NCBI GenBank assembly: GCA_023954745.1 | Contig: JAGSHC010000035.1 | Span: 1-35,852 of the forward strand | Direction: 5' to 3' | Origin: Deltaproteobacteria bacterium | GTDB taxonomy: Bacteria; Myxococcota_A; UBA796; UBA9615 | Length of the DNA stretch: 35,852 nucleotides | In this document: one piece after another, positions 17,672-35,852 of the stretch | How the letters are laid out: every line of letters starts with the position of its first letter | Numbering within the stretch: position 1 is the first letter of the stretch | The notes under the pieces: model-generated | Databases searched by the model: none | What the model saw: only the letters and a program-made list of their open reading frames with translations | Told to the model about the DNA's origin: nothing | Program-made: the position numbers and the translations under genes

Positions 17672-20600
17672 CTAGAGTCCGACCTGGACGTAGAGACCGA
17701 GCTCCCACTCGTTCTGCCACCCGTCGGGGTCGATGGGGTCTCGTTCGTAGCGGTTGCTGTACTGGTTGAGGTAGCGCAGCTGCCCGCGCAGACCGAGGCG
17801 CGTCCAGGGCATGCCGAGGCGCGGCGCGCTCAGGCCGACCCAGAGGTCACCCATGGCCTGCACCGGGAACGTGAGGTTGAAGTCACGGTGGTAGTCATAC
17901 GGCCCGAAGTCCCCGAACTTGAGGAAGCCCTCGAAGCCCATCTTCCGGTACCAGATCTTCCAGTCGACCCCCGCGCGGTTGGCGAGGCGCTCCGACGGGC
18001 CGCTCGACTGAGCCTGTCCGCCCCAGACGTTCCCGATGATGCGCAGATTGTTTGTGGCGGCGGAGATCAGCCGGAACTTGAGGTCCCACACATTCGCCGC
18101 GGGCTGGCCCGCCCCGAGGATGAGAGGGTCGCCGGTGGCGCTCCACCCGATGTTCGAGTCCGTCGCCGTGGGCTGGATCTTGTAGACGAAGTCCATGGAG
18201 ACGGCGAACTTCGCGTCCTCTCGGACGTCGTTGTCCCACTGCCACATCCAGGTCGCGGGCGTCGGGTCGTAGCCCATGAGCAACTCGAACGCGATGGTCT
18301 CGCGGTTGTCGCCCACGCGGAACGGGTCGGCGATGCGGTTGCGGGGGTTGACTCCCCGCCAGAACACGCCGTCCTGCACGCCCGCCTCGATCTGCGGCAC
18401 CGCCTCTTCGAGGGGGCGCTGGTACATGAAGGCGGGGCCGATGCTCAGCTTGCCGACGTTGATGAGCACGCCGGTGATGCCATGCACGTGGTTGCCGCGG
18501 CCGGACTCCTTGAGCGACCAGCGGGCGAAGTTGATGGTGTTGTCACCACCGGAGTCCGCGACGACGCCCTTGTATGCGCCCTGGATCCACCAGTTGATGG
18601 GCCCCTTGCTCAGGCGGAACTTGATCTTGGCGCCCAGCGTGTCGGTGAAGGCGACCTTGTCATTGCGGACGAAGTAGCCGGAGTCCTTGTACGACGCCGC
18701 TCCCTCGGGGGCGCGCCGGACCGACACGAAGCTCTGACCGAGGCGCTCGGTGCCGGCCATCAGCCCGCCGAACTCGACCTGGGCCGGGCCGCGCTTGAGC
18801 GTGAGATAGACCGACGTCTTCCGACCGACGTACTCGGGGATGACGCGGGTGGCGCCCGTGGCCCCCAGGGACGTGATGTCCTCCTGGTGCATCACCGCGA
18901 AGCCAAAGGGCCCGAAGGTGCGGCCGTACTTGGCGATGACCGTGGGGTTGGCGCCCCAGGTGATCTGAGGGCCGGTGGCGATGCTGAGGCCCTCCAGGAA
19001 CTTCTTGCCGTGGAACTCGAGCCCGAAGGGCACGTTGGCGTTGTAGGTGTCGATGTTCGGTCCGTACTGGGCCTCCTGATAGAAGCCGAAGAAGTCGCCG
19101 TCGTCACCCCAGTGGCCGTGGCCCCGCCGGAAGTACCCCTCCAGCTCGAACCACTTCGTGTCCCACTGGAACGACGCGCCGTGGATCTGGACGCGGTCGA
19201 AGAAGGTGACCCGCTCTTCACCCTCGGCGTCCACGACGGCCACCGGCTGCGCCCGCGCCTCGTAGAAGATCTCGTCGATACGGTTCTGGGCAGCGTTGGC
19301 CACCACGTTGATGCCCACCTCGGCCCGGAAGTTGGGCGTCGGGGTGACCTTGAGATCGACGTAGAAGCTCTCGGTGTGGTCGAACCTGATCTTCTCCTTG
19401 CCCGTGCCCGGCACGTAGCTCCCCGAGGTGGCGTACCCGCCGATGTCGGCCCGGATGTTGGCGATGACCGCCTTCTGGATCTCCGCCAGCACCTTCTCGG
19501 CGCGGTCGGCCTGGTACCCCGCCTTGAAGGCGATGGGCTTGAGGCGGTCGAAGTGCCGCTCGATGGTCTCCGGCGTGGCGCGCTCCTCGTAGGGATGCAG
19601 CGTGAAGGCCTCCTTGAGCATGTAGTACGCGGACCGGGGCTGGACCTCGTAGATGCCCGCGGAGTTCGGCGGGGTCTTCGCCGCGATGCCGAACCACTCC
19701 TCGTTCATGTTGTTGCCGCCCTCGACGAAGTCCAGGGGGTAGGCCCGGTTGGGCCAGGTGGCGCTGTTGTTCTGGATGTCGAGGTCGTACTCCTGGCCCG
19801 TCTTCCACCAGCCGTCGGACCATTGGAAGATGTACCCACCGAGGGCCGAGCCGGACTTGCCGTTGCCATAGGCGTGCTCGTACATCTCCTGCCACTGGCC
19901 TCGCAGGTACCAGGCCTGGTCCAGGTGGTCTTCCTTGTCGTCCCGGGCGTTGTAGGCATCGGCCCCGAACTCGGCGAACATCACCGGGATGTCGAGCTTG
20001 GCCACCACCTCGTCGAACAGGTTCCCGAAGCTCACGCCGCGGTAGACGTTGCTGCCCATGATGTCGAGGTTGGGCACGTGCTCGGCGATGAGGTCGATGT
20101 ACTGCAGGTCGCCGTTGCAGATGGACACCGGGTGGTTGGGGTCCATGGCATGGATGGCGTCCACCAGCTCGCCGTAGAGCGTGTAGAGGTGCACCGCCCG
20201 GGCCTTGTCGCGCTCGCCCTGGGGTAGCGCCTCGATCTCGAAGCTGCTCCAGGACAGGCCGTAGTTGTTCTCATTGCCGAGCAGGTAGAAGAGCATCCCC
20301 TTCGTGTCCTTGAACCTCTCGAAGTTCTTCATCACGTCGGCCTTGACCACCTCCCGGGTGCGGGCGTCGCTGTAGTCCACGACCGGGACCCACTTGCCGT
20401 CGATGTCGAAGCCGTAGCGCGCCATCGTGTGGTTGATCATCGTCCAGATGCCGTACGTCTCGTAGATGTAGGTCACCCAGCGCGGAGGCGTCGTGTAGTA
20501 CTGGCGGATGGTGTTGATGCCCATCGCCTGCATCAGCTCCATCTCGGGAGCGAGGGCCCGCTTGATCCACTCGTCGTCGTGGGCCCAGAAGTCGTAGCTG

Positions 20601-20926
20601 TAGTTCTCACCGATGGGCACGTAGCCCCAGTTCATGCCGTACAGGTAGACGGGCTCTCCGTTGGCGAGCAGCTTCCAGCCGTCCTCGTCGCGGTAGACCT
20701 CGACGACGTCCCCGCCGCCGTCAGCCATGCGCACGACGGTGGGGGGAGCTGGGACCACCTCGGCCGGGGCAGGCGCGACGACGTCGACCGCTGGGGCTGG
20801 CTCGCCCTCGGGAGCAGGCTCCTCGGGAGCAGGCTCCTCGTCCGGGGGCGGGTCTTCCTGGGCCCAGGCGGGCGCCGCGAGCAGCAGCACCCAGGAGCAG
20901 AAGATGAGGAGAAGGCTGCGATTCAT
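17672..20926 (-). CDS. Clan GH-A glycosidase fused to a predicted outer-membrane beta-barrel
   Basis: A 1084-residue exported protein. The start at 20926 overlaps the upstream stop (ATGA). It has a signal peptide (1-22) and a Pro/Glu/Ala linker (about 23-65), followed by a TIM-barrel glycosidase domain (about 75-450) resembling GH2 and GH72-like enzymes. EPVYLYGMNWGYV opens this domain, GINTIRQYYTTPP follows, LLGNENNYG holds the likely acid/base Glu219, and VMFAEFGAD holds the likely nucleophile Glu319. After a helical joint (about 450-500), residues about 510-1084 are almost entirely alternating polar and hydrophobic strands with Gly and Trp/Tyr girdles, ending in ELGLYVQVGL. That is the look of an outer-membrane barrel. 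The family and linkage specificity are unsure; beta-1,3-glucan is inferred from the operon. Confidence 0.82.
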   Translation of the reverse strand: MNRSLLLIFCSWVLLLAAPAWAQEDPPPDEEPAPEEPAPEGEPAPAVDVVAPAPAEVVPAPPTVVRMADGGGDVVEVYRDEDGWKLLANGEPVYLYGMNWGYVPIGENYSYDFWAHDDEWIKRALAPEMELMQAMGINTIRQYYTTPPRWVTYIYETYGIWTMINHTMARYGFDIDGKWVPVVDYSDARTREVVKADVMKNFERFKDTKGMLFYLLGNENNYGLSWSSFEIEALPQGERDKARAVHLYTLYGELVDAIHAMDPNHPVSICNGDLQYIDLIAEHVPNLDIMGSNVYRGVSFGNLFDEVVAKLDIPVMFAEFGADAYNARDDKEDHLDQAWYLRGQWQEMYEHAYGNGKSGSALGGYIFQWSDGWWKTGQEYDLDIQNNSATWPNRAYPLDFVEGGNNMNEEWFGIAAKTPPNSAGIYEVQPRSAYYMLKEAFTLHPYEERATPETIERHFDRLKPIAFKAGYQADRAEKVLAEIQKAVIANIRADIGGYATSGSYVPGTGKEKIRFDHTESFYVDLKVTPTPNFRAEVGINVVANAAQNRIDEIFYEARAQPVAVVDAEGEERVTFFDRVQIHGASFQWDTKWFELEGYFRRGHGHWGDDGDFFGFYQEAQYGPNIDTYNANVPFGLEFHGKKFLEGLSIATGPQITWGANPTVIAKYGRTFGPFGFAVMHQEDITSLGATGATRVIPEYVGRKTSVYLTLKRGPAQVEFGGLMAGTERLGQSFVSVRRAPEGAASYKDSGYFVRNDKVAFTDTLGAKIKFRLSKGPINWWIQGAYKGVVADSGGDNTINFARWSLKESGRGNHVHGITGVLINVGKLSIGPAFMYQRPLEEAVPQIEAGVQDGVFWRGVNPRNRIADPFRVGDNRETIAFELLMGYDPTPATWMWQWDNDVREDAKFAVSMDFVYKIQPTATDSNIGWSATGDPLILGAGQPAANVWDLKFRLISAATNNLRIIGNVWGGQAQSSGPSERLANRAGVDWKIWYRKMGFEGFLKFGDFGPYDYHRDFNLTFPVQAMGDLWVGLSAPRLGMPWTRLGLRGQLRYLNQYSNRYERDPIDPDGWQNEWELGLYVQVGL

Positions 20927-24768: not shown

Positions 24769-26442
24769 TCAGTTGCCCTCCGCCACGACGGGCTCGCGGG
24801 GCGCGATGCGGGTCAACACGTGCAAGAACTCGAGCTCGTGGTTGGGGGAGAGTCGCGAGTACGGGTTCTCCGCCGACGGGAAGCCCGTGAACCGGGTGGT
24901 GTTCGCCTCGCCCCAGGAGGGGTCGAGGAACAGGGGAAGCAGCGGCGCCGTGGCCTGAAACCGCGCCTGGAGAGCGTGGGCGATGCGCTCCTGTTCGGCG
25001 GGGTCGGCGGTGCGCTCGAATGCCGCCAGGAGCGTGTCCGCCTCGGGGTCCGAGAATCGATGCCAGTTCTGGGGTGCCACCTCGCCAATGGGGAACATCG
25101 AGCCGCTCGACATGGCGCCAACCCAGAACCCGTATGGCGTGGGTCCGTAGGAGGCCCACCCGATGGACAGGGCGAACTCGCCGCGCTGGAGCTGGTCGAA
25201 CCAGGCGCCGAAGTCGTAGCTCTTGACCGAGACGTCGAGCCCCACCCCTTGCAGGTTCCGGGCGATGACCTGGGCGGCGCGCACCCAATCGGACCATCCG
25301 GTGATGCAGGACAGCTCGAGGGTGACGGGCTGTCCGTCGGTGCCGCGGCGTAGACCGTCCTCTCCCAGAGGGAGTCCGGCCTCATCCAGGAGGCGCGCCG
25401 CCTCGGCGGGGTCGAAGTCTGTCCACGGGTCCTCGGTCAGGGCCGCCTCGTCCCGCCACTGCGCGTAGCCATCGGACAGGCCGCTCACGTCGGCAGGAGA
25501 GGTGTAGTCGTACATCGCCACCTGCACGACCTTGTCCCGGTCGATGGCTCGCGAGAGGGCCTTGCGGACCCTCGCGTCCTTCAGGGGCCCCACCGTGTGG
25601 TTCGGGTACAGGAAGATGGCCCCGCCGAAGTTGGGGAACCAGTAGCGGTGATGCTCCGGGTTGCGGCCGGCGAAGATGCGGTCGATGGCGGGGATGAAGT
25701 TGCCAGCCCAGTCCACCTCGCCGTGCATCAGCGCGATGGTCGCCTGCTCGTTCGACGGAATCGCGGGAAAGCGGAGCGCCTCGATCTTCGGGGCTCCGTC
25801 CATCCAGTAGTTCGGGTTCTTGCCCAGCTCCCAGACCTGGTGGTCGAACCGACGGACCTCGGTGAACGGTCCCGTGGCCACGGGGTCTGGATTCGTCCAG
25901 GAGACGGGCTCCTCGACGGACTCCCAGACATGGCGCGGCACGATGACCTGGTGGGCGATCTTCTCCATCCCCGGCACGAAGGGGCGCGCGAAGGCGAACT
26001 GCACCGTCTGGGGGTCAGGCGCGCTCACGGACCGCAAGTAGCGCCAGTGTCCCTGGGTATCGAACGCCGGCACCTTCTTCATGAGGTCAAAGGTGAAGAC
26101 CACGTCGTCCGCAGTGAACGCCTCCCCGTCGGACCACCGCACGCCCTCCCGCAAGGAGAAGCTCAAGGAGGTGACGTCCTCGCCCCAGGTGAAGCCCGTG
26201 GCCAGCCAGGGTGTCCAGGCGCCCTGGGCGGGGTTGTGCACCATCAGGGGTTCGTAGATTCCGCCGCGCGTGGGCCAGCGGGCGAGTCCTCCTGCCAGCA
26301 ACGGATTGAAGTTCCGCACCCAGGAACCCACCTGCTCCCGGCTGACCACCAGCACGCCCGGTTCCGGCTCCATGGCCGGCTCCGCACATGCGGGGGTCAA
26401 GATGGCCGCCACCAGGGCGCCCACCAGGAGGATGCGAGTCAT
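24769..26442 (-). CDS. Family 5 solute-binding lipoprotein, probable beta-glucan oligosaccharide binder
   Basis: A 557-residue extracytoplasmic binding protein. The lipobox TPAC places the anchor at Cys19. The body follows the family 5 (Opp/Dpp) pattern: NPLLAGGLARWPTRGGIYEPLMVH near the start, LREGVRWSDGEAFTADDVVFTFDLM, and VRKALSRAIDRDKVVQVAMYDYTSPAD in the middle. Family 5 includes peptide binders, but also cellobiose- and laminaribiose-type binders known from Thermotoga. The GH16 gene seven bases upstream and the glycosidases downstream support an oligosaccharide ligand. Binding-pocket residues cannot be read from the sequence alone. Confidence 0.9.
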   Translation of the reverse strand: MTRILLVGALVAAILTPACAEPAMEPEPGVLVVSREQVGSWVRNFNPLLAGGLARWPTRGGIYEPLMVHNPAQGAWTPWLATGFTWGEDVTSLSFSLREGVRWSDGEAFTADDVVFTFDLMKKVPAFDTQGHWRYLRSVSAPDPQTVQFAFARPFVPGMEKIAHQVIVPRHVWESVEEPVSWTNPDPVATGPFTEVRRFDHQVWELGKNPNYWMDGAPKIEALRFPAIPSNEQATIALMHGEVDWAGNFIPAIDRIFAGRNPEHHRYWFPNFGGAIFLYPNHTVGPLKDARVRKALSRAIDRDKVVQVAMYDYTSPADVSGLSDGYAQWRDEAALTEDPWTDFDPAEAARLLDEAGLPLGEDGLRRGTDGQPVTLELSCITGWSDWVRAAQVIARNLQGVGLDVSVKSYDFGAWFDQLQRGEFALSIGWASYGPTPYGFWVGAMSSGSMFPIGEVAPQNWHRFSDPEADTLLAAFERTADPAEQERIAHALQARFQATAPLLPLFLDPSWGEANTTRFTGFPSAENPYSRLSPNHELEFLHVLTRIAPREPVVAEGN

Positions 26443-26449
26443 TGGGGAG

Positions 26450-27256
26450 TTACTCCGCGGCGGCCGAGAAGGCCCGAATCCAGTCGACCTCCATGGTCAC
26501 TTCGTCGGGCGTCGAGGCGTCTGGGGGCAAGGGGTAGTTCCCGCCCACGGCGACGTTGAGGATCATGAAGAAGGGGTGGTCGTAGACCCAGGTTCCGAAC
26601 TGCGGAACCTCGTCCCGACTGAAGGTGTAGAAGAGCTCGTCGTCGAGGAACCACCAGATGCGGTCCGGGTCCCACACGACGTTGTAGATGTGGAAGTCGT
26701 CGGCGAGGGACCCGTCTGCCCTCACGGTGCCGCCGATCCCCTGGCCACCGGAGTATCCGGGGCCGTGCACGGTGCCGTTGAGGTCTGCTGGAGCCGACCC
26801 TCGCAGCTCGAGGATGTCGATCTCGCCGCAGTCGGGCCAGCCAGCGTCCTCGAAGTCGTTGCCCAGCATCCAGAACGCAGGCCAGATGCCCTTGCCGGCG
26901 GGCAGCTTGATGCGGGCGCCGATCCAGCCGTACTCGACCTCTTCGAGGCCTTCGGTCTTGATGCGGGCCGAGGTCCACTCGTTGCCCTCGTACTGCTCGC
27001 GCTTCGCGGTGATGAGCAGGCGTCCGTCGCCGGAGAGGCCGACGTTCTCGGGGCGGTCGGTGTAGTGCTGGAGTTCGTTGTTGCCCCACCCCCACCCGCC
27101 GATGTCGGCGGTCCAGCGGTCGGGGTTGGGGAAGGCTCCCTCGTCCCCATCGAAGTCTTCGGTCCAGAGCAGGTCCCACGGGCCGTCCGGGACGTCCGTG
27201 CGGCAACCAGCGAGGAGCAGGAGGGCTGCGAGGCCAGCGAAGGTGAGAGACTTCAT
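26450..27256 (-). CDS. GH16 endo-beta-1,3-glucanase (laminarinase-like) lipoprotein
   Basis: A 268-residue glucanase with lipobox LLAGC (Cys18). The catalytic motif GEIDILE at 144-150 gives nucleophile Glu145 and acid/base Glu150. The extra residue between Asp147 and Glu150 is the beta-bulge form found in laminarinases and kappa-carrageenases rather than in lichenases. NELQHYTDRPENV (from residue 60) and GKGIWPAFWML are typical laminarinase segments, and NVAVGGNYP marks the later glucan-binding strand. It should cut beta-1,3-glucan at the outer face of the cell or in the periplasm. A stable hairpin covers its ribosome site and is listed separately. Confidence 0.95.
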   Translation of the reverse strand: MKSLTFAGLAALLLLAGCRTDVPDGPWDLLWTEDFDGDEGAFPNPDRWTADIGGWGWGNNELQHYTDRPENVGLSGDGRLLITAKREQYEGNEWTSARIKTEGLEEVEYGWIGARIKLPAGKGIWPAFWMLGNDFEDAGWPDCGEIDILELRGSAPADLNGTVHGPGYSGGQGIGGTVRADGSLADDFHIYNVVWDPDRIWWFLDDELFYTFSRDEVPQFGTWVYDHPFFMILNVAVGGNYPLPPDASTPDEVTMEVDWIRAFSAAAE

Positions 27257-27331: not shown

Positions 27332-29245
27332 CTAGGGCGCCATCTGGATGTCGTCGACGTAGAACGTGCCGGTGCCGCCGCTCGCTCCATCGACGCCGAA
27401 GTACGGGAAGATGGAGAGCTTGTCGTACGTGTTGCCGGCGGCAAACCCTTGCCCGTTCGGGAACGGGGCGGACAGGTCAAAGGTCACGGTCTGCCAGGTG
27501 CTGGCGGTTCCGGTGAAGGTGGCCTGCTTCTCGATGAAGATGCCAGCGTTGGTGCTGTCCTCCACCTTGAGCAGGAAGTCGATGTTCGAGACGGGCGACC
27601 AGACATCCACGGTCATCTCGAGGTCGGTGGCAGTCAGCGGGAGCGCGGCGATGGAGTCGAGGGCTCCTCCCGTCGAGATCGTCACTCCAGCCCACGTGGG
27701 GGACGAAGCCACCTTGTCGAGCTGGGCGACCATGTTGCTGGAGTCCGTCGGGTCCACGACCGCCGCGCCCGATGCGTCGCCGAAGCCCACGAAGGAGTAG
27801 GTGGTCGAGCTGTCGTCAAACGTGATCGGGACCCCCGTAGCCACGACCGCGGCCGGGCAGGCGGTGGAGTACATCGTGCCGAGGAACCAGACGTCATCGA
27901 CGTAGTAGGTCTTGTCGACTCCGCCCGCGTCGGCGCCGGAGGTGCCGAAGTTGGGGAAGATCGAGATGCGGTCGTAGGTGACCGTGGGATCGAACGTCCC
28001 GCCGGTCGCCGCCGAGTAGTCGATGGTCAGGGTCTCCCAGTTCGACGCCGCCGACACGGTGCCCTGAGCTTCAGCGTACTGGGCGCCATTGCCGCTGTTC
28101 TCGATCTTGATCATGAACGGAACCGCAGGGTCCGGTGACCAGACATCGATGCTCAGCTCGGTCTCTGTCGCCGTGAAGGGCATCACGGCCACGGTGTCGC
28201 CTGCGCAGGCGGACATCGTCACGCCGGCCCAGGTCTCAGCCGCTGCGCCCTTGCCGAGTTCGGCGACCATGTTGGTCGCGTCCGTGGGATCGACCACCGC
28301 CGAGCCTCCAGCGCCACCGAAGCCGGTGAAGGTCGGGGCCACGCCTTCGAAGTCGAAGACCACGGTGTCGCCGCCGCCAGCGCTGTCGTCGTCGTCACCC
28401 GCGCTGTCGTCGTCGTCACCCGCGCTGTCGTCGTCGTCACCAGCCGCCGGACAGTCCGTCGAGTACACCGTGCCGAGGAACCAGACGTCATCGACGTAGT
28501 AGTTCTTGTCGACCCCACCTGCGTCCGCGCCAGAGGTGCCGAAGTTGGGGAAGATGGAGATGCGGTCGTAGGTGACCGCGGGGTCGAACGTGCCGCCCGT
28601 CGCAGCCGAGTAGTCGACCGTCAAGGTCTCCCAGGCCGACGCTGCCGACACGGTGCCCTGCGCTTCGGCGAACTGGCTTCCGTCAGCGCTGTTCTCGATC
28701 TTCACCAGGAACGGCACCGCGGCATCTGGCGACCAGGCGTCGATGGAGAGCGAGGTCTCGGTGGCCGTAAACGGCATCACTGCGACGGTGTCTCCCTCGC
28801 AGGCCGACATCGTGACTCCGGCCCAGGTCTCCGCGGCTGCGCCCTTGCCGATCTCGGCGACCATGTTGGAGGAGTCGGTTGGGTCGACCACGGCCGATGC
28901 GCCGGCGCCACCGAATCCGGTGAAGGTCGGGGCGTCACCCTCGAAGTCGAAGATCACCGTGTCAGTCAGGGGCCCAGTGGCGTCGTCGTCGTCTCCGCCG
29001 GAGTCGTCGTCGTCACCCGTGGCGTCGTCGTCGTCGCCCGTCGCGTCGTCGTCGTCACCCGTGGCGTCATCGTCGTCGCCCGTCGCGTCATCGTCGTCGC
29101 CCGTCGCGTCGTCGTCGTCGTCGATGGCGGTGCCATCGTCGTCCGCGCCGTCACCGGGGCAGCCGACACCGAACACGCCGAACATCATCAACGCGACAAA
29201 CAGCCGCATCGTCATCTGAAGGCTCGAGGCCTGGGGAGTGCGCAT
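27332..29245 (-). CDS. Triple-domain putative glucan-binding surface lipoprotein
   Basis: A 637-residue lipoprotein. The ATG at 29245 has AGGAG six bases upstream; other in-frame ATGs lack a site. The signal ends in FGVGC (Cys29). Residues about 41-93 are an acidic linker of DDDDATG units. Three homologous beta-sandwich-like domains follow (about 95-265, 293-463 and 472-637), the first two nearly identical and joined by a second linker of three DDDDSAG units. Each has the outline VVDPTDSSNMVAELGKG, WAGVT, WETLTVDYS, YDRISIFPNFG and YYVDDVWF. This outline resembles non-catalytic domains found next to GH16 enzymes in marine glucan-degrading loci. It is probably the main capture protein for polymer at the cell surface. 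Binding is inferred, not shown. Confidence 0.82.
   Translation of the reverse strand: MRTPQASSLQMTMRLFVALMMFGVFGVGCPGDGADDDGTAIDDDDDATGDDDDATGDDDDATGDDDDATGDDDDATGDDDDSGGDDDDATGPLTDTVIFDFEGDAPTFTGFGGAGASAVVDPTDSSNMVAEIGKGAAAETWAGVTMSACEGDTVAVMPFTATETSLSIDAWSPDAAVPFLVKIENSADGSQFAEAQGTVSAASAWETLTVDYSAATGGTFDPAVTYDRISIFPNFGTSGADAGGVDKNYYVDDVWFLGTVYSTDCPAAGDDDDSAGDDDDSAGDDDDSAGGGDTVVFDFEGVAPTFTGFGGAGGSAVVDPTDATNMVAELGKGAAAETWAGVTMSACAGDTVAVMPFTATETELSIDVWSPDPAVPFMIKIENSGNGAQYAEAQGTVSAASNWETLTIDYSAATGGTFDPTVTYDRISIFPNFGTSGADAGGVDKTYYVDDVWFLGTMYSTACPAAVVATGVPITFDDSSTTYSFVGFGDASGAAVVDPTDSSNMVAQLDKVASSPTWAGVTISTGGALDSIAALPLTATDLEMTVDVWSPVSNIDFLLKVEDSTNAGIFIEKQATFTGTASTWQTVTFDLSAPFPNGQGFAAGNTYDKLSIFPYFGVDGASGGTGTFYVDDIQMAP
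27857..28963 (-). repeat. Tandem domain duplication inside the lipoprotein gene
   Basis: Two copies of about 513 bases (28451-28963 and 27857-28369) encode domains 1 and 2 of the lipoprotein. They are nearly identical in protein and very similar in DNA; for example, both contain GAGGTGCCGAAGTTGGGGAA in the same place. Differences are mostly at third codon positions. The third domain (27332 to about 27830) is clearly related but much more diverged. This points to an older duplication followed by a recent one or by gene conversion. Confidence 0.85.
28380..28442 (-). repeat. Three 21-base units encoding DDDDSAG
   Basis: Three direct repeats of a 21-base unit, identical except at the last bases, encode three DDDDSAG linker units between domains 1 and 2 of the lipoprotein. 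Such exact repetition is prone to length change by slippage or recombination. Confidence 0.85.
28970..29122 (-). repeat. GDDDDATG linker repeats next to the lipid anchor
   Basis: About seven imperfect 21-base units encode DDDDATG or DDDDSGG directly after the lipobox region of the lipoprotein. The coding strand alternates GAC runs with GCGACG or GCCACG. The same linker style occurs in the amylase, in the small lipoprotein at 16413-17087 and at the right end of the window. Confidence 0.85.
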
Positions 29246-29259
29246 GGAAATCTCCTGGG

Positions 29260-30516
29260 TCATGCGCCGCCGGGCAGTGCCACAGCGGGGTGGTTGAAGT
29301 GGGGACGCGAGTCGGGACGACCTGCGAAGAGGGAAGGGTCGGCGAGGCATGCTTCGAGGACCTGGGTGGCGGCTCCGGTGACGACCGCGGCTTCCTTCAG
29401 CTCAGAGACCACGACCTCCGTCGCTGCAAAGGAGCGGCCCAGCGTGCGCTGGGCGAGGGTCTTCTCCATGGGACGCAGCAGAAGGTCGTCCGCGAGCACG
29501 GGAAGGCTGCCCCCGAGCACGACGCGGGCGGGGTTGAGCAGGTTGACGAGGTTGGCGACCGCCGTGCCCAGGTAGGCGCCCGCCTCCGCGAGCACCTCGC
29601 GGGCCACGGCGTCGTCCGCGCGGGCGGCCATGGCGATGGCCGCGGGCGTCGGCTCCACTCGCGCCAGGACCGACGGCGAGTCGTCGTCCAGGCGCGCCCG
29701 CACCTCCCGGGTGAGAGAACCCGAGCCGATCATCGCCTCGAGACAACCATTGAGACCACAGCGGCACTTCGGCCCCCGAGGATCGATGGCGGTGTGCCCG
29801 ATCTCGCCTGCGATGCCTGCGGAGCCGCGAAAGAGCCGGCCGTCGATGACCAGACCCGCGCCGACCCCCGTGGCCACCTTGATGTAGGCCATGTCGCCGC
29901 TGCGCTGGCCCGCCCCCCACCAGTACTCAGCCAGAGCACCGACGTTGGCGTCGTTGTCGATCCACACCGGCAGTCCCGAGAAGCCGCGGACCCGCGAGAG
30001 CACCGGAACTCCCTCCCAGGCCGGGAGGATGCGCGCCGAGAGCTCGTCGGGGTTCTTGGGGTCGAGGGGCGAGGGAACCGAGAGGCCCACCCCCACCACG
30101 ATGCGGTCCATCTTGAAGGCGGAGGCCATCGACGCGGACAGCAGGCGGTCCACGAGGTCGAGGGTGCCGTGGGGGTCCTCCTCGACGGGGTACGCCATCC
30201 GGTCGGAGCGGAGGAGCTTGCCCGCGGCGTCCATGAGCGCGATGCGGACGTGTGACGCGCCGAGGTCGACTCCAAGGAAGGCGAAGCGGTCCGTAGCGAA
30301 GCGCAACACCACGGGGGGCCGGCCTCCCTTCGAGCGCGCCACATGGGAGATGACGATCAGCCCCTGGTCCAGGAGGTCCTGGACGATGCTCCCCACCGTG
30401 GATGGAGCAAGGCCGATCTTGCGCGACAGCGAGGCCCGGGACACCTCGCCGGCCTCCCAGATCGTGCGCAGGACCTTCGTCCGATTGTCTTCGCGGGTTC
30501 CGCCATCCTGACTCAT
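29260..30516 (-). CDS. ROK-family transcriptional repressor
   Basis: A 418-residue regulator. I chose the ATG at 30516; translation further upstream would run through the AT-rich promoter island. Residues about 10-75 form a MarR-like winged helix (VSRASLSRKIGLAPSTVGSIVQDLLDQGLI). Residues about 80-400 are a ROK sugar-kinase-like domain with FLGVDLGASHVRIALMD as phosphate-binding motif, WIDNDANVGALAE, GEIGHTA, and the zinc motif CRCGLNGCLEA. The zinc motif and helix-turn-helix indicate a repressor of the NagC/Mlc/XylR type rather than a simple kinase. It is first gene of the glucan operon and diverges from the GH17 gene, so it probably controls both directions and senses glucose or a laminari-oligosaccharide. 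Confidence 0.93.
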   Translation of the reverse strand: MSQDGGTREDNRTKVLRTIWEAGEVSRASLSRKIGLAPSTVGSIVQDLLDQGLIVISHVARSKGGRPPVVLRFATDRFAFLGVDLGASHVRIALMDAAGKLLRSDRMAYPVEEDPHGTLDLVDRLLSASMASAFKMDRIVVGVGLSVPSPLDPKNPDELSARILPAWEGVPVLSRVRGFSGLPVWIDNDANVGALAEYWWGAGQRSGDMAYIKVATGVGAGLVIDGRLFRGSAGIAGEIGHTAIDPRGPKCRCGLNGCLEAMIGSGSLTREVRARLDDDSPSVLARVEPTPAAIAMAARADDAVAREVLAEAGAYLGTAVANLVNLLNPARVVLGGSLPVLADDLLLRPMEKTLAQRTLGRSFAATEVVVSELKEAAVVTGAATQVLEACLADPSLFAGRPDSRPHFNHPAVALPGGA

Positions 30517-30523
30517 GGGAGGT

Positions 30524-30553
30524 ACTTTATTCTTCGGTCGAAGAAAAAAGCAA
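30524..30553 (-). promoter_or_regulatory. Putative promoter and first operator of the ROK-glucan operon
   Basis: On the minus strand TTGCTT (30548-30553) and TAAAGT (30524-30529) could serve as -35 and -10 boxes with an 18-base spacer. The spacer is filled by a palindrome: perfect arms TTCTTCG and CGAAGAA around GT (30530-30545), extended by TTT/AAA outside one mismatched pair to 30526-30549. The -10 box ends seven bases before the ROK ATG, and no Shine-Dalgarno is present, so the transcript may be leaderless. A repressor on this palindrome would shut its own promoter. TTCG..CGAA cores are usual for ROK regulators such as Mlc and NagC. Confidence 0.6.
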
Positions 30554-30562
30554 AGGGAAAAG

Positions 30563-30575
30563 TTCGATAGTCGAA
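30563..30575. promoter_or_regulatory. Second TTCGA..TCGAA palindrome, probable ROK operator
   Basis: Perfect arms TTCGA and TCGAA flank TAG. The centre lies about 31.5 bases from that of the first palindrome, three helical turns, so both sites face the same side of the DNA and could hold two interacting dimers. It lies on the GH17 side of the divergent gap, 77 bases before that gene's start. No convincing -35 and -10 pair for the GH17 direction is visible, although TTAATA follows at 30576-30581. The stretch from about 30524 to 30590 is strikingly AT-rich for this genome. Confidence 0.6.
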
Positions 30576-30651
30576 TTAATAGGTACTGTGGCCTCAGGAG
30601 CGAGGACGTTCCGGGTCTCGACGACACCCATTCCAGCCGCTCGGAGGCGCC

Positions 30652-31680
30652 ATGAAACGTGCACTGATCGCCATCGCCTTTGGACTCCTGCTGGTCGGGT
30701 GCGGCGCGACATCACCCCCGGAGTCTTCTCCGGAGACCACCTCCGAGAGCGGCCCTTCGGAGGCGAAACCGCCCACCGGGTCTGAGACGCGTCGGGCTTT
30801 CGCCCCCGTGCGGGATGGTGCTCCGGTGATCGCCGGGATCTCGTACGGGCCATTCCGCGCAGGGCAGAAGCCCGGCGGGCCCGACCCCACGCCCGAGCAG
30901 ATCCTCGAGGACCTGCGCATCCTCGCGCCCCGCTGGGGGATGATCCGCCTCTACAGCAGCCGCGGGCCGGCAGAGATCATCCTGCGCACCATCCGGGACG
31001 AGAAGCTGCCCATCGCCGTCATGGTCGGGGCCTGGATCGCGCCGGACGACGCGAAGGCAAACGCCCTCGAGGTCGTCGAGGCCATTCGGCTCGCCAACGC
31101 CTACCCCGAGCAGGTCCTCGCGGTGAGCGTCGGCAACGAGAGCCAGGTGGAGTGGTCGGGCCACCGCTCCAAGCGCGATCTGCTCATCGCGCACATCAAG
31201 ACGGCGCGGGCGGGCGTGAAGCAGCCCGTCACCACCGCCGACGACTACAACTTCTGGAACAAGCCCGCCAGCCACGCCGTGGCCGACGAAGTCGACTTCC
31301 TGCTCCTGCACGCGTATGCCATGTGGAACCAGCAGACGCTCGCGAATGCGGTCGCCTGGACGGAGACCACCATCGCCTCCATCAAGAAGGAGCACCCCGA
31401 CCTCCCCATCGTCATGGGCGAGACGGGCTGGGCCACTGAGCTCAACCCCGAAGGCGACGAGGTGAACTACATCAAGGCGCCGGCCGGAGAAGCCGAACAG
31501 AAGCAGTTCTTCACCGAGTGGACCGCCTGGGCCGCCAAGGTGAAGCAGCCCTACTTCTACTTCGAGGCGTTCGACGAGCCCTGGAAGGGCAGCGACAACC
31601 CCCGTGAAGTCGAGAAGCACTGGGGCCTCTACAACGAAGACCGCACGCCGAAGATGGTGCTGAAGGAGGTGGTGCCGTGA
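30652..31680 (+). CDS. GH17-like beta-1,3-glucanase lipoprotein
   Basis: A 342-residue lipoprotein with lipobox LLVGC (Cys17), a Ser/Pro/Glu-rich linker (about 18-55) and a compact TIM barrel (about 58-340). The opening GISYGPFRAGQ and MIRLYSS match the first strands of GH17. SVGNES holds the likely acid/base Glu163 and IVMGETGWAT holds the likely nucleophile Glu257. YFYFEAFDEPWKG and EKHWGLYNED are typical end motifs of the family. GH17 enzymes cut or transfer beta-1,3-glucan chains. A GGAGG site precedes the ATG. It heads a two-gene operon with the symporter, divergent from the ROK gene. Confidence 0.9.
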   Translation: MKRALIAIAFGLLLVGCGATSPPESSPETTSESGPSEAKPPTGSETRRAFAPVRDGAPVIAGISYGPFRAGQKPGGPDPTPEQILEDLRILAPRWGMIRLYSSRGPAEIILRTIRDEKLPIAVMVGAWIAPDDAKANALEVVEAIRLANAYPEQVLAVSVGNESQVEWSGHRSKRDLLIAHIKTARAGVKQPVTTADDYNFWNKPASHAVADEVDFLLLHAYAMWNQQTLANAVAWTETTIASIKKEHPDLPIVMGETGWATELNPEGDEVNYIKAPAGEAEQKQFFTEWTAWAAKVKQPYFYFEAFDEPWKGSDNPREVEKHWGLYNEDRTPKMVLKEVVP

Positions 31681-33242
31681 GCGAGCAACCGAAGCCCGGC
31701 CCGCCCCAGGACCCCTTCGGGAAGCCAGCCTCCCCCGAGGCTGCCGGCCTCTTCGCCAACGCGCTGGCGGCCTGGCACCTGCGCTTCGGCGCCGACAACG
31801 ACACCAGGCCCGAGGACCGCGTGGGCTTCCTGCGCATGGTGATCTACGGCATCGGCGCCTTCGTGAACAACACGCTCGCGGCGGCCATCGGCGGAATGCT
31901 CATCGTGCTCAACCTGGGACTCGGCATGGACCCGGCGTTGGTGGGCCTGCTCGGCGCCCTGCCCCGGCTGACCGACGCCATCACCGACCCCCTGATGGGC
32001 TACATCAGCGACCACACGAAGTCTCGATGGGGACGCCGCCGTCCCTACATCTTCGCTGGCGCAATCGCGGCGGGCCTCATCTACATGGTCCTGTGGTGGC
32101 TGCCGCTCGGACAGTCCGAGACCTTCTACTTCGTCTGGTTCCTCGTCGGCTCGATCCTCTTCTATCTCGCCTACACCATCTTCGCGACGCCCTGGGTCGC
32201 CATGGGCTACGAGCTCACGCCCGACTACAACGAGCGCACGCGGCTCATGGGCACCCAGAACTTCATCGGACAGCTCGCCTACGTGGTGTCGCCCTGGTTC
32301 CTCTGGTTCATGACCAACAAGGACTGGTTCCCGGACCAGGTGGAAGGCGCCCGCTGGCTCGCCATCATCATCGGCGTCGTGGTCATCGGCCTGGGCATCC
32401 TGCCCGCCATCTTCCTGCGGGAGCGCTTCGCCGAAGCAGCCGTCGACGACAACCCCGAGCCCGACGAGCCGTCGCGAGGCTTGGTCCACAGCCTCAAGGA
32501 CTTCGGCCAGGGCTTGAAGATCACCCTGTCCTCGACCTCGTTCCTGAAGCTCGGAGCCGCCACTTTCCTGGTGTTCAACGGCTTCATCCTCATCAGCTCG
32601 TTCCAGTTCTACGTCATCATCTACTACGTCTTCGGTGGCGATCAGGAGCTCGGCTCGGAGTGGGCCGGCTACTCCGGCACCGTCGGTGCCGTCTCGACCT
32701 TCATCGTGATCACGCTCATCACGTGGCTCGGCACCAAGGTCGGCAAGCGGCGGGCCTTCTTCGGAGCCATCGGCGTGTCCATGGTCGGATATGCGCTCAA
32801 GTGGTTCTGTTACAACCCCGAGATCCCCTGGCTTCTCCTGGTCCCCGCACCGCTGATGGCGTTCGGCCTCGGGGGGCTCTTCACCTTGATGGGCTCGATG
32901 ATCGCCGACGTGGTCGACGAGGATGAGCTGATCACCCAGGAACGCCGCGAAGGCATGTTCGGCTCCATCTTCTGGTGGGTCGTGAAGCTCGGAATGGCGG
33001 CGGCCCTCGCGGGTGGCGGGTACCTCCTCAATGCCACGGGCTTCGACGTCGAGCTCGGCGGCAACCAGGCAGCGAACACCATCTTCTGGATGCGCGTGTG
33101 TGATGCCTTCGTGCCCGTCGTCACCTCGGCCTTGGCCATCTGGGCGGTGTGGAGCTACCCCATCACCGAAGAGACAGCCAACGCCACCCGCTTGGAGCTC
33201 GAGCGCCGGCGCGGAACCGAGGCGGCCCCCGCGGCTTCCTGA
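31677..33242 (+). CDS. GPH-type sugar:cation symporter (MFS)
   Basis: A 521-residue transporter with about twelve membrane helices. It begins at a GTG overlapping the upstream stop (GTGA), with AGGAGG seven bases before it. The loop 2-3 signature TDPLMGYISDHTKSRWGRRR is diagnostic for the glycoside-pentoside-hexuronide and SLC45/sucrose-transporter relatives. A second charged loop (TWLGTKVGKRRAFF) sits in the C-terminal half. It is longer than MelB because of an extended N-terminus (about 40 residues) and a central cytoplasmic loop. It probably imports glucose, laminaribiose or a similar product of the GH17 enzyme, coupled to protons or sodium. Confidence 0.9.
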   Translation: MSEQPKPGPPQDPFGKPASPEAAGLFANALAAWHLRFGADNDTRPEDRVGFLRMVIYGIGAFVNNTLAAAIGGMLIVLNLGLGMDPALVGLLGALPRLTDAITDPLMGYISDHTKSRWGRRRPYIFAGAIAAGLIYMVLWWLPLGQSETFYFVWFLVGSILFYLAYTIFATPWVAMGYELTPDYNERTRLMGTQNFIGQLAYVVSPWFLWFMTNKDWFPDQVEGARWLAIIIGVVVIGLGILPAIFLRERFAEAAVDDNPEPDEPSRGLVHSLKDFGQGLKITLSSTSFLKLGAATFLVFNGFILISSFQFYVIIYYVFGGDQELGSEWAGYSGTVGAVSTFIVITLITWLGTKVGKRRAFFGAIGVSMVGYALKWFCYNPEIPWLLLVPAPLMAFGLGGLFTLMGSMIADVVDEDELITQERREGMFGSIFWWVVKLGMAAALAGGGYLLNATGFDVELGGNQAANTIFWMRVCDAFVPVVTSALAIWAVWSYPITEETANATRLELERRRGTEAAPAAS

Positions 33243-33347: not shown

Positions 33348-35852
33348 ATGCCGACCGTCGCGCGCGCTCTTCCCTTCGCCCTCGCCGCACTGCTTCTCCC
33401 CGCTGCCGCCTCCGCGAACAGCGACCACCTGCTCATCACGGAGGTGGCCTACGACGTGTCGGCGAGCCCCGAGAACAGCGAGTGGTTCGAGATCTACAAC
33501 CCCACCGACACCGACATCGTGCTCAACGACGGCACCGCCCAGTACTTCGTCTCCGACGACGAGGACGTGTACTGGCAGGTGGTCAATGGGTCGGTCAGCA
33601 ACTCCGGGTCTGACTGGCTGCTCGGCTTCCCCGTGGGCACCGTGCTCCCAGCCCGCTCCTTCCTCGTGGTGGTGAAGGATGACTTCGCGTTCTTCGGTGA
33701 GTTCTTCGCCGCCGGTCAGGCGGCCTTCGAGGATCAGCCCGGCTCCCCGCAGATCTTCGAGTTCTCCACGGACACGGACGCCATCACCGACATGGTGAAC
33801 TTCGGCTCGGGCACCACCCTCAGCCTCACCAACAGCGGCGAGGACCTGGTGCTGTTCTACTGGGACGGCGTCTCGGACCTCGTGCAGGACGTCGACCACG
33901 TGTGCTGGGAGGACCTCACCGAGCTCATCAACAAGACGGGCGTCGCCATCGACGGCCCCGACGCCGATGGGAGCAACTCGGTCTTTCTCACCGACGCCGG
34001 TGGAGCCACCGCCGCGCCGGCCACCCCGGGTGGGCTCACCATTCAGCGGGCCCATGCGCTGGAGACCGGAGAGGTCTCGAGCGGCGGCAACGGCATCACC
34101 GGCCACGACGAGACCACCGAGCAGTGGGGCACGTCCTTCGTCGTCGGTGGCCCCACGCCGGGGCGCTTCCTCATCGAGACCGACGGAGACCTGGCGGACC
34201 TCGCAGCCGCTGCAGCCCCCCTGGCCGTCTCCCAGGCAGATGGGCCCGGCATGGGCTCCACGACCGACTTCGGCGGCGACGGCTCCATCACCGAGCTCTA
34301 CGCCGTGCCCGAAGACACCGACGGTGATGGCCTCGCGGACGTGCTCCATGTGGGCATCCGCGGCGAGTTCTGGACCACGGGGCCGGGCACCAACGGGACG
34401 TACATCGGGCTCGACGTGAACCCAGGCTCGGGCGTGGGAGTGACCGCGCTGATGTCCCCCGGGACCGACGGCTCGGACGTGACGGGCGCCCTCGACTACG
34501 ACATCACCTACTCCGAGGTCATGCTGGGCGCGGACCCGCTGGCCGCGGGGATTGGCTTCGACGCGGTCCTCGGCTTCACCGAAGACGCCTGTCCCACATC
34601 GGACCTCTGCGGCGCGCGCGGGCTGGGGAGCGACGGGGTCGGGGGCTTCCTCACGGACTACGCATTCCTCGGCGACTTCGCCACCCTCTCCGATGTGGCG
34701 GTCGGGATCTGCCGCCCCACCCTGCCCGGAGCCATCGGCACGGTCTACGCCGCCCCCGAAGGACTCGAGTTCGCGGTGCCCCTGGCCGATCTCGACCTCC
34801 CCAACGTGGTCGCGCTGGCCGCGTGGAGCTCCGGGGATGGCGCCGTCGGCCCCAGCCCGAACACCCTCCCCGAGAACGCGTCCAACACGTTCGGCGCCGC
34901 GGAGACCCTGGAGGCCGTTGCCTGCGTGGGCATCGACGGTCCCCTCCCCCAGGCCTACGCCGACGCGGACGGCGATGGCGAAGGCGACCCCGCGACCAGC
35001 GTGGCCGTCTGTGGCACCGCTCCTTCGGGCCTCGTGAGCAACGGCGACGACTGCGACGACAGCGACGCATTGGTGAACACCGGCGCGACCGAGGTCTGCG
35101 ACGGCGACGACGAAGACTGCGACGGAGACGTCGACGAGGGCTTCGACGCCGACGGCGACGGCGCCTACGACGGCTCCATCACGGGCTGCGTGACCGCCTA
35201 CGGCGCCAGCAACGTGGACTGCGATGACGCAGACGCCACCATCTTCCCCGGCGCGACGGAGCTGTGCGACGGCGCCGACAACGACTGCGGTGGTGACATC
35301 GACGAGGACTTCGACACCGACGGCGACGGCGCCTTCACCAACACCGTCAACGAGTGCATCACCACCTACGGCCCGACGGCCGTGGACTGCGACGACACCA
35401 ACGCCACGCTCTTCCCCCTCGCCACCGAGGTGTGCGACGGCGACGACGAGAACTGCAACAGCGTGACCGACGAGGGCTTCGACACCGACGGCGACGGGTA
35501 CTTCGACGGTTCCGATGCCGGCTGCGTGGCGTACTACGGAGCGGCCGTGGACTGCGACGACAGCGAGGCGGCGACGAACCCCGCTGCCACGGAGGACTGC
35601 GGCAACCTGCTCGACGACGACTGCGATGGACTGGTTGATCTGGCCGACACGGACTGCGTCCTCGGGGACGACGACGACGCCACGGGAGACGACGACGACT
35701 CGGGTGACGACGACGACTCGGGTGACGACGACGACGCGACCGGCGACGACGACGACTCGGGTGACGACGACGACGCCACCGGCGACGACGACGACTCGGG
35801 TGACGACGACGACGCCACTGGAGACGACGACGACTCGGGTGACGACGACGAC
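33348..35852 (+). CDS. Large secreted protein with lamin-tail domain, MopE repeats and GDDDD tail, 3' end missing
   Basis: An uninterrupted frame of 835 codons runs off the window. The ATG follows AAGGAGG by five bases. It has a signal peptide (1-23) and a lamin-tail domain (about 25-170: LLITEVAYDVSASPENSEWFEIYNP). A beta-rich middle region (about 175-535) contains an EF-hand-like DTDGDGLAD. Four MopE-type putative metal-binding repeats follow (539-599, 600-655, 656-711, 712-770), each with DCDD, ATE.C and a DxDGDG start. From about residue 773 the protein is GDDDDATG and GDDDDSG units to the window edge. It probably sits on or outside the outer membrane and binds calcium or copper. A sorting tag such as MYXO-CTERM may lie beyond the window. 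No link to glucan use is evident. Confidence 0.85.
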   Translation, partial: MPTVARALPFALAALLLPAAASANSDHLLITEVAYDVSASPENSEWFEIYNPTDTDIVLNDGTAQYFVSDDEDVYWQVVNGSVSNSGSDWLLGFPVGTVLPARSFLVVVKDDFAFFGEFFAAGQAAFEDQPGSPQIFEFSTDTDAITDMVNFGSGTTLSLTNSGEDLVLFYWDGVSDLVQDVDHVCWEDLTELINKTGVAIDGPDADGSNSVFLTDAGGATAAPATPGGLTIQRAHALETGEVSSGGNGITGHDETTEQWGTSFVVGGPTPGRFLIETDGDLADLAAAAAPLAVSQADGPGMGSTTDFGGDGSITELYAVPEDTDGDGLADVLHVGIRGEFWTTGPGTNGTYIGLDVNPGSGVGVTALMSPGTDGSDVTGALDYDITYSEVMLGADPLAAGIGFDAVLGFTEDACPTSDLCGARGLGSDGVGGFLTDYAFLGDFATLSDVAVGICRPTLPGAIGTVYAAPEGLEFAVPLADLDLPNVVALAAWSSGDGAVGPSPNTLPENASNTFGAAETLEAVACVGIDGPLPQAYADADGDGEGDPATSVAVCGTAPSGLVSNGDDCDDSDALVNTGATEVCDGDDEDCDGDVDEGFDADGDGAYDGSITGCVTAYGASNVDCDDADATIFPGATELCDGADNDCGGDIDEDFDTDGDGAFTNTVNECITTYGPTAVDCDDTNATLFPLATEVCDGDDENCNSVTDEGFDTDGDGYFDGSDAGCVAYYGAAVDCDDSEAATNPAATEDCGNLLDDDCDGLVDLADTDCVLGDDDDATGDDDDSGDDDDSGDDDDATGDDDDSGDDDDATGDDDDSGDDDDATGDDDDSGDDDD
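34962..35660 (+). repeat. Four MopE-type repeats, period 168 bases
   Basis: Repeats start at 34962, 35145, 35313 and 35481. The second and third are exactly 56 codons; the first is five codons longer and the fourth ends irregularly in DCGNLLDDDCDGLVD. Each has a DxDGDG loop that could bind calcium, then VDCDDxxA and ATExCDG with paired cysteines. This is the pattern annotated as putative metal-binding motif in Myxococcota secreted proteins. Confidence 0.85.
35664..35852 (+). repeat. GDDDD linker minisatellite at the window edge
   Basis: An array of 18-base (GDDDDS) and 21-base (GDDDDAT) units in mixed order continues to the last base. Nearly every codon in the acidic runs is GAC, so the DNA is itself a strong simple repeat. 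The total length is unknown because the window ends inside it. Confidence 0.85.

Follow-up and report, generated by a model that had tools for sequence, protein, structure and literature searches.

Palindrome 1, an inverted repeat located just upstream of a ROK-family regulator gene in the 35,852-nucleotide stretch of DNA analyzed here (hereafter, the window), is very probably the operator of the adjacent ROK protein, as judged by comparison with its orthologs. The model as a whole, which we consider quite likely, is that palindrome 1 serves as the putative ROK operator within a self-repressing, leaderless promoter of a glucan cluster. The mechanism that we infer is as follows. A ROK dimer would bind the 21-bp site of palindrome 1, composed of two 8-bp half-sites that are 5 bp apart, and the bound protein, placed over the -35/-10 spacer of its own leaderless promoter, would exclude RNA polymerase. 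The ROK gene would be repressed and, through co-transcription, so would the β-1,3-glucan genes that follow it on the same strand. A glucan-derived sugar would loosen the ROK protein, inducing the cluster; glucose and laminaribiose are candidate effectors, guessed from the gene content. Palindrome 2, a putative weaker second site, may add to the repression or reach the promoter of the divergent GH17-symporter genes.

The regulator matches the ROK domain of Pfam (PF00480) with a score of 186.7 bits compared with a cut-off of 22.9 (9e-55), and contains an N-terminal winged helix-turn-helix (HTH) domain (Pfam HTH_24, residues 9–54). Within the zinc motif H..CxCGxxGCxE, residues H241, C251, C253, G254, G257 and C258 are invariant among 18 sequences. 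The locus (Table 1) fits β-1,3-glucan (laminarin-like) use, a substrate suggested by the gene content. The Asp-rich lipoprotein of the window and that encoded at L164:4770-5975 are both secreted; they contain extended Asp-rich linkers (GDDDDATGDDDD) and CBM-like repeats and have no Pfam match. In one relative, a putative ROK operator is located in trans, upstream of a homolog of the Asp-rich lipoprotein. A further Asp/Ser repeat-coding stretch is seen at the right end of the window (35534–35818 and adjoining frames).

Table 1 Coordinates of the palindromes, promoter elements and genes in the window.
Feature	Position	Strand	Basis and remarks
Palindrome 1, perfect core TTCTTCG-GT-CGAAGAA	30530–30545		Sequence and repeat search; center 30537.5
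Palindrome 1, conserved 21-bp register TTTCTTCG-ACCGA-AGAATAAA	30526–30546	-	Matrices built without the window; near-palindrome 30525–30550
Palindrome 2, TTCGATAGTCGAA (TTCGA-TAG-TCGAA)	30563–30575		Sequence and repeat search; center 30569
Palindrome 2, 21-bp register TTAATTCG-ACTAT-CGAACTTT	30559–30579	-	4.6 bits; half-site match to L051
Possible ROK -35, TTGCTT, weak	30548–30553	-	Sequence; 37 to start codon, compared with 34–36 for ortholog TTGAC
Possible ROK -10, TAAAGT	30524–30529	-	Sequence; 7 nt upstream of ATG, 5–7 nt in orthologs
ROK-family regulator, 418 aa, winged HTH and ROK domain	29260–30516	-	Pfam; 18-ortholog alignment; likely leaderless start at 30516
Asp-rich repeat secreted lipoprotein, CBM-like repeats	27332–29350	-	True start within the ORF; follows ROK in several relatives
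GH16 glycoside hydrolase	26450–27256	-	Pfam 5.7e-24; retained behind ROK in 9 relative loci
Family-5 extracellular solute-binding protein	24769–26442	-	Pfam 1.8e-73; retained in 4 relative loci
Homolog of GH2-type protein found after ROK in relatives	17675–20704	-	49% over 1014 aa; Pfam of relative
Divergent GH17 lipoprotein	30652–31680	+	Pfam 1.4e-7; sequence; GGAGG ribosome site
GPH-type sugar symporter, behind GH17	31677–33242	+	Pfam MFS_2 7.4e-65; TIGR00792 below cut-off

The first-pass annotation described two palindromes that share a TTCG/CGAA core and are spaced by three helical turns. Reading of the sequence (30514–30600) and a repeat search confirmed both palindromes with centers 31.5 bp apart, and the spacing is arithmetically correct (3.0 turns at 10.5 bp). 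The palindrome 1 arms (30525–30536 and 30539–30550) pair at 11 of 12 positions around a 2-bp center; its initially described 24-base form (30526–30549) is present as a near-palindrome that pairs at 10 of 11 positions. The core does occur in both palindromes, but in a different register because the spacing around it differs, TTCG-N2-CGAA in palindrome 1 versus TTCG-N5-CGAA in palindrome 2. Palindromy by itself is moderately unusual: dinucleotide shuffling of the AT-rich stretch produced a 7-bp perfect arm in 36 of 2000 trials and two TTCG..CGAA pairs together in none of 2000. In the organism's own 7.1-Mb genome, the perfect core (TTCTTCGNNCGAAGAA, 16 bp) of palindrome 1 has a single exact occurrence, and at up to two mismatches it is not enriched (10 places versus 11 for the reversed control). 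This core was rejected as a genome-wide regulon pattern; its one-mismatch place (C38:42) lies inside what appears by eye to be a Ser/Thr kinase gene. With looser core matches at chance level and palindromy only moderately rare, relatives were therefore needed, and the case for an operator rests on them.

A protein search identified orthologs of the window ROK protein, at 45–52% sequence identity, in 16 genomes of the same class and in one genome elsewhere in the phylum, and no ROK ortholog above about 52% identity in any genome. At that distance from the closest ortholog, the window leader is not footprintable via near relatives. A single-protein scan of named genomes gave no matches; an alignment-based scan succeeded. 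The first site registers were picked by eye, and the test was therefore repeated with an independent matrix whose only sources were L066, L080, L083, L088 and L093, all members of other classes or phyla. The general operator form is TTTGTTCG-N5-CGAACAAA, with two 8-bp half-sites, and it is perfect in L080 (Gemmatimonadota). Scored with the independent matrix, palindrome 1 yields 19.9 bits in the window ROK leader, a value equaled by none of 395 random regions, and matrices built without the window rank it above every other window site. It has three mismatches to the consensus half-sites, contains two N5 readings offset by 3 bp, and in the 21-bp register covers the -35/-10 spacer and reaches into the ROK -10.

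In all 16 same-class orthologs, the same matrix detects a site that coincides with either the start codon or the promoter. Fifteen of these leaders outscore every one of ~390 regions drawn at random from the same locus; the L061 leader score is matched by 3 of 391. Relative to the start codon, the site is at +3 or +7 in 14 orthologs, at -36 and -40 in L053 and L062, and at -30 in the window. The motif also occurs in L080, L083, L088 and L093, which belong to other phyla or classes, and the L093 site (TTTGTTCTTCGGCCGAACAAA) is identical to palindrome 1 at 18 of 21 positions. In L066, strong sites precede GH1 and lipoprotein genes rather than the ROK start. The start codon (ATG or GTG) of 14 of the 16 class orthologs is immediately followed by a 25-bp pseudo-palindrome, TTTGTTCGTTCG-N-CGAACGAACAAA, which also fits two 21-bp sites offset by 4 bp. 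The 25-bp register with a single central base (TTCG-N1-CGAA inside, N9 outside) was retained for same-class use only, as other phyla show N5. The genome scan for TTCGNNNCGAA-like sites advocated earlier assumed a spacing that differs from the conserved N5 form. An inverted-repeat site is thus conserved at the orthologs' own promoter or start. At the level of sequence, this comparison establishes the site and its association with ROK orthologs, as well as the promoter spacing described below. The autoregulatory part of the first-pass annotation, with palindrome 1 as a putative ROK operator over the gene's own promoter, is strongly supported by the orthologs, and so is the overlap of palindrome 1 with that promoter.

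On the minus strand, TTGCTT (30553–30548) is followed by an 18-bp spacer (30547–30530), TAAAGT (30529–30524), 7 nt and the ATG at 30516. Both hexamers match poorly (3/6 and 4/6), and no promoter was found by a strict sigma-70 scan. The palindrome was said to fill the spacer exactly; the core covers 16 of the 18 spacer bases, but the longer near-palindrome enters both hexamers. The ROK ATG has no Shine-Dalgarno sequence upstream, whereas GH17 has GGAGG. The window thus combines a -10, albeit with weak hexamers, at 5–8 nt from the start codon with the absence of a ribosome site, as expected of a leaderless message. Among the 14 orthologs whose operator directly follows the start codon, TTGAC is located 34–36 bp upstream of the start in 12, compared with 6 of 642 control ORF starts in a set that includes ROK ORFs, and the best -10 hexamer ends 5–7 nt upstream of the start in all but L061. 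The window keeps the ortholog -35-to-start spacing, but with weaker hexamers. The leaderless ROK message proposed from the window alone is strongly supported by these ortholog promoters.

In the 14 orthologs (L051, L052, L054–L061, L063–L065 and L067), the operator lies within bases 1–28 of the ROK gene, where it forms codons 2–9 and encodes the first residues (M-F-V-N-S-P-N-E-Q in the case of L067). The operator of the window, and those of L053 and L062, are instead in the promoter spacer, and the ortholog alignment shows that these proteins begin without the extra N-terminal tail. Five loci (L054, L056, L058, L061 and L067) contain no other in-frame ATG, GTG or TTG from the operator to the HTH, so the operator would be translated in at least five loci, barring a rare start codon. 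We find it reasonably probable that the class ROK operator usually comprises codons 2–9 of a leaderless gene, such that a single 25-bp segment acts as the operator while also providing the 5′ end of the message and the N-terminus of the protein, and that the window and one other lineage carry the operator in the promoter spacer and lack the tail. In the ROK protein tree the window row has no well-supported neighbors, a result compatible with either a single origin of the spacer arrangement or two. If true, these loci form a natural series on how operator position, spacer versus start codon, tunes self-repression.

Palindrome 2 is probably a weaker second ROK site, with moderate support from its sequence. 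The operator of L051, the nearest ortholog by identity, is made up of exactly the half-sites TTAATTCG, found in palindrome 2, and TTTCTTCG, found in palindrome 1; neither has a second occurrence in the 35.8-kb window. The recognition segment GLAPST is common to L051, L054, L056 and the window, and elsewhere is mostly GLSRST or GLSRAT; the pairing of GLAPST with the half-site is suggestive only, because TTAATTCG is also present in L067, which has GLSRST. It is conceivable, though we doubt it, that palindrome 1 is the only operator, that palindrome 2 is a chance occurrence in an AT-rich promoter, that the three-turn spacing is meaningless and that GH17 is controlled independently. Consistent with this, the 4.6-bit score of palindrome 2 is matched by 47 of 2000 shuffled regions (2.4%), and in most relatives ROK has a single site. 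No operators were found upstream of GH17 homologs in relatives, where GH17 mostly comes after GH16 or CBM-like genes and, in the relatives read, is not divergent from ROK. A chance origin accords poorly with a half-site shared with L051 and L067 yet unique in the window, with the failure of shuffling to produce two TTCG..CGAA pairs, and with the second sites present in L055, L065, L088 and L093. Cooperative occupancy of both sites by ROK on one helix face, switching both directions, is rather unlikely. ROK regulators such as NagC and Mlc are able to act at paired sites and the 3.0-turn distance is compatible with such binding; however, paired sites in relatives are 77–146 bp apart, with a spacing that is neither constant nor in phase. 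The reading that we prefer remains palindrome 1 as the ROK operator and palindrome 2 as a weaker second site.

In the organism's own 7.1-Mb genome (G000), TTTGTTCGN5CGAACAAA at up to three mismatches is found at palindrome 1 and at one other place only. Across 71 class genomes, the two-mismatch pattern is about three times as frequent as the reversed control. Sites in relatives precede an Asp-rich lipoprotein gene (G067), a GH3 gene (G070), and a GH1 gene and a lipoprotein gene (G081). In G070, a one-mismatch operator on another contig (L167:1424-1444, G070:C111) is 22 bp upstream of the GH3 start, marking a candidate distant regulon member. The G061 site (L165) upstream of a cytochrome-like lipoprotein gene and several two-mismatch places look like chance matches and were set aside. 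Two genomes in which no ROK ortholog was detected carry N5 sites before likely secreted-protein genes, a perfect one in L187 (G046:C274:7040-7060) and a two-mismatch one in L198 (G059:C209:2545-2565).

Short palindromes fit many transcription factor families, but we regard binding of another factor instead of ROK as very unlikely given that the motif follows ROK orthologs in 16 class genomes and beyond, into other phyla, and that its location is always either the ROK start or upstream of glucan genes. A role as an RNA hairpin or terminator is highly improbable and was rejected: the site would sit at the message 5′ end in 14 orthologs, yet in the window, L053 and L062 it is in the promoter spacer and would escape transcription with ROK, no terminator-like site was found, RNA around the start is predicted to fold only weakly (-0.4 to -6.8 kcal/mol), and pairing extends to just 5–7 of 12 positions in several sites that nonetheless retain their half-sites.

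The palindromes first read by eye thereby become a defined putative operator, TTTGTTCG-N5-CGAACAAA, with a candidate β-1,3-glucan regulon in relatives of Myxococcota that have been little studied and are mostly uncultured. The arrangement predicted here, in which a self-repressed ROK regulator controls a β-1,3-glucan cluster, is of a kind already known, to which it would add a new member. The window protein has the same domain order as Mlc and NagC across nearly its full length, and its closest solved structures include those of Mlc and Lmo0178 (1z6r and 5f7p). Nonetheless, it is not a NagC or Mlc ortholog, because it scores far under the NCBIfam equivalog cut-offs (203/650 and 192/530 bits). 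Thermotoga maritima BglR is likewise a ROK regulator of laminarinase, β-glucosidase and transport genes, but it responds to cellobiose and glucose, regulates ABC transporters and belongs to another phylum (PMC3750489). XylR of Bacillus and Paenibacillus is also a ROK protein with an inverted-repeat operator, and many species carry such sites at the xylR gene itself; as far as the available excerpts of its descriptions go, that operator is about 25 bp with GTTT..AAAC halves, differs in its GTTT-N7-AAAC spacing and half-site letters, controls xylose genes, and is not reported in a leaderless arrangement (PMC9104551, PMC2873477). The closest precedent for the arrangement is AcuR of Rhodobacter sphaeroides, whose leaderless acuR-acuI-dddL operon was proven by 5′ RACE and mutation (PMC3017554). 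There, as predicted here, the repressor gene comes first, the transcript starts at the ATG and an inverted-repeat operator lies over the promoter; unlike the ROK protein of the window, AcuR is of the TetR family, its operator is TAATAGAC-N6-GTCTATTA and its inducer is acrylate (PMC3017554). The window protein is therefore not an AcuR-type regulator by identity, though it would work like one. It would extend the leaderless, self-repressed regulators to the ROK family, with two operator positions that are directly comparable.
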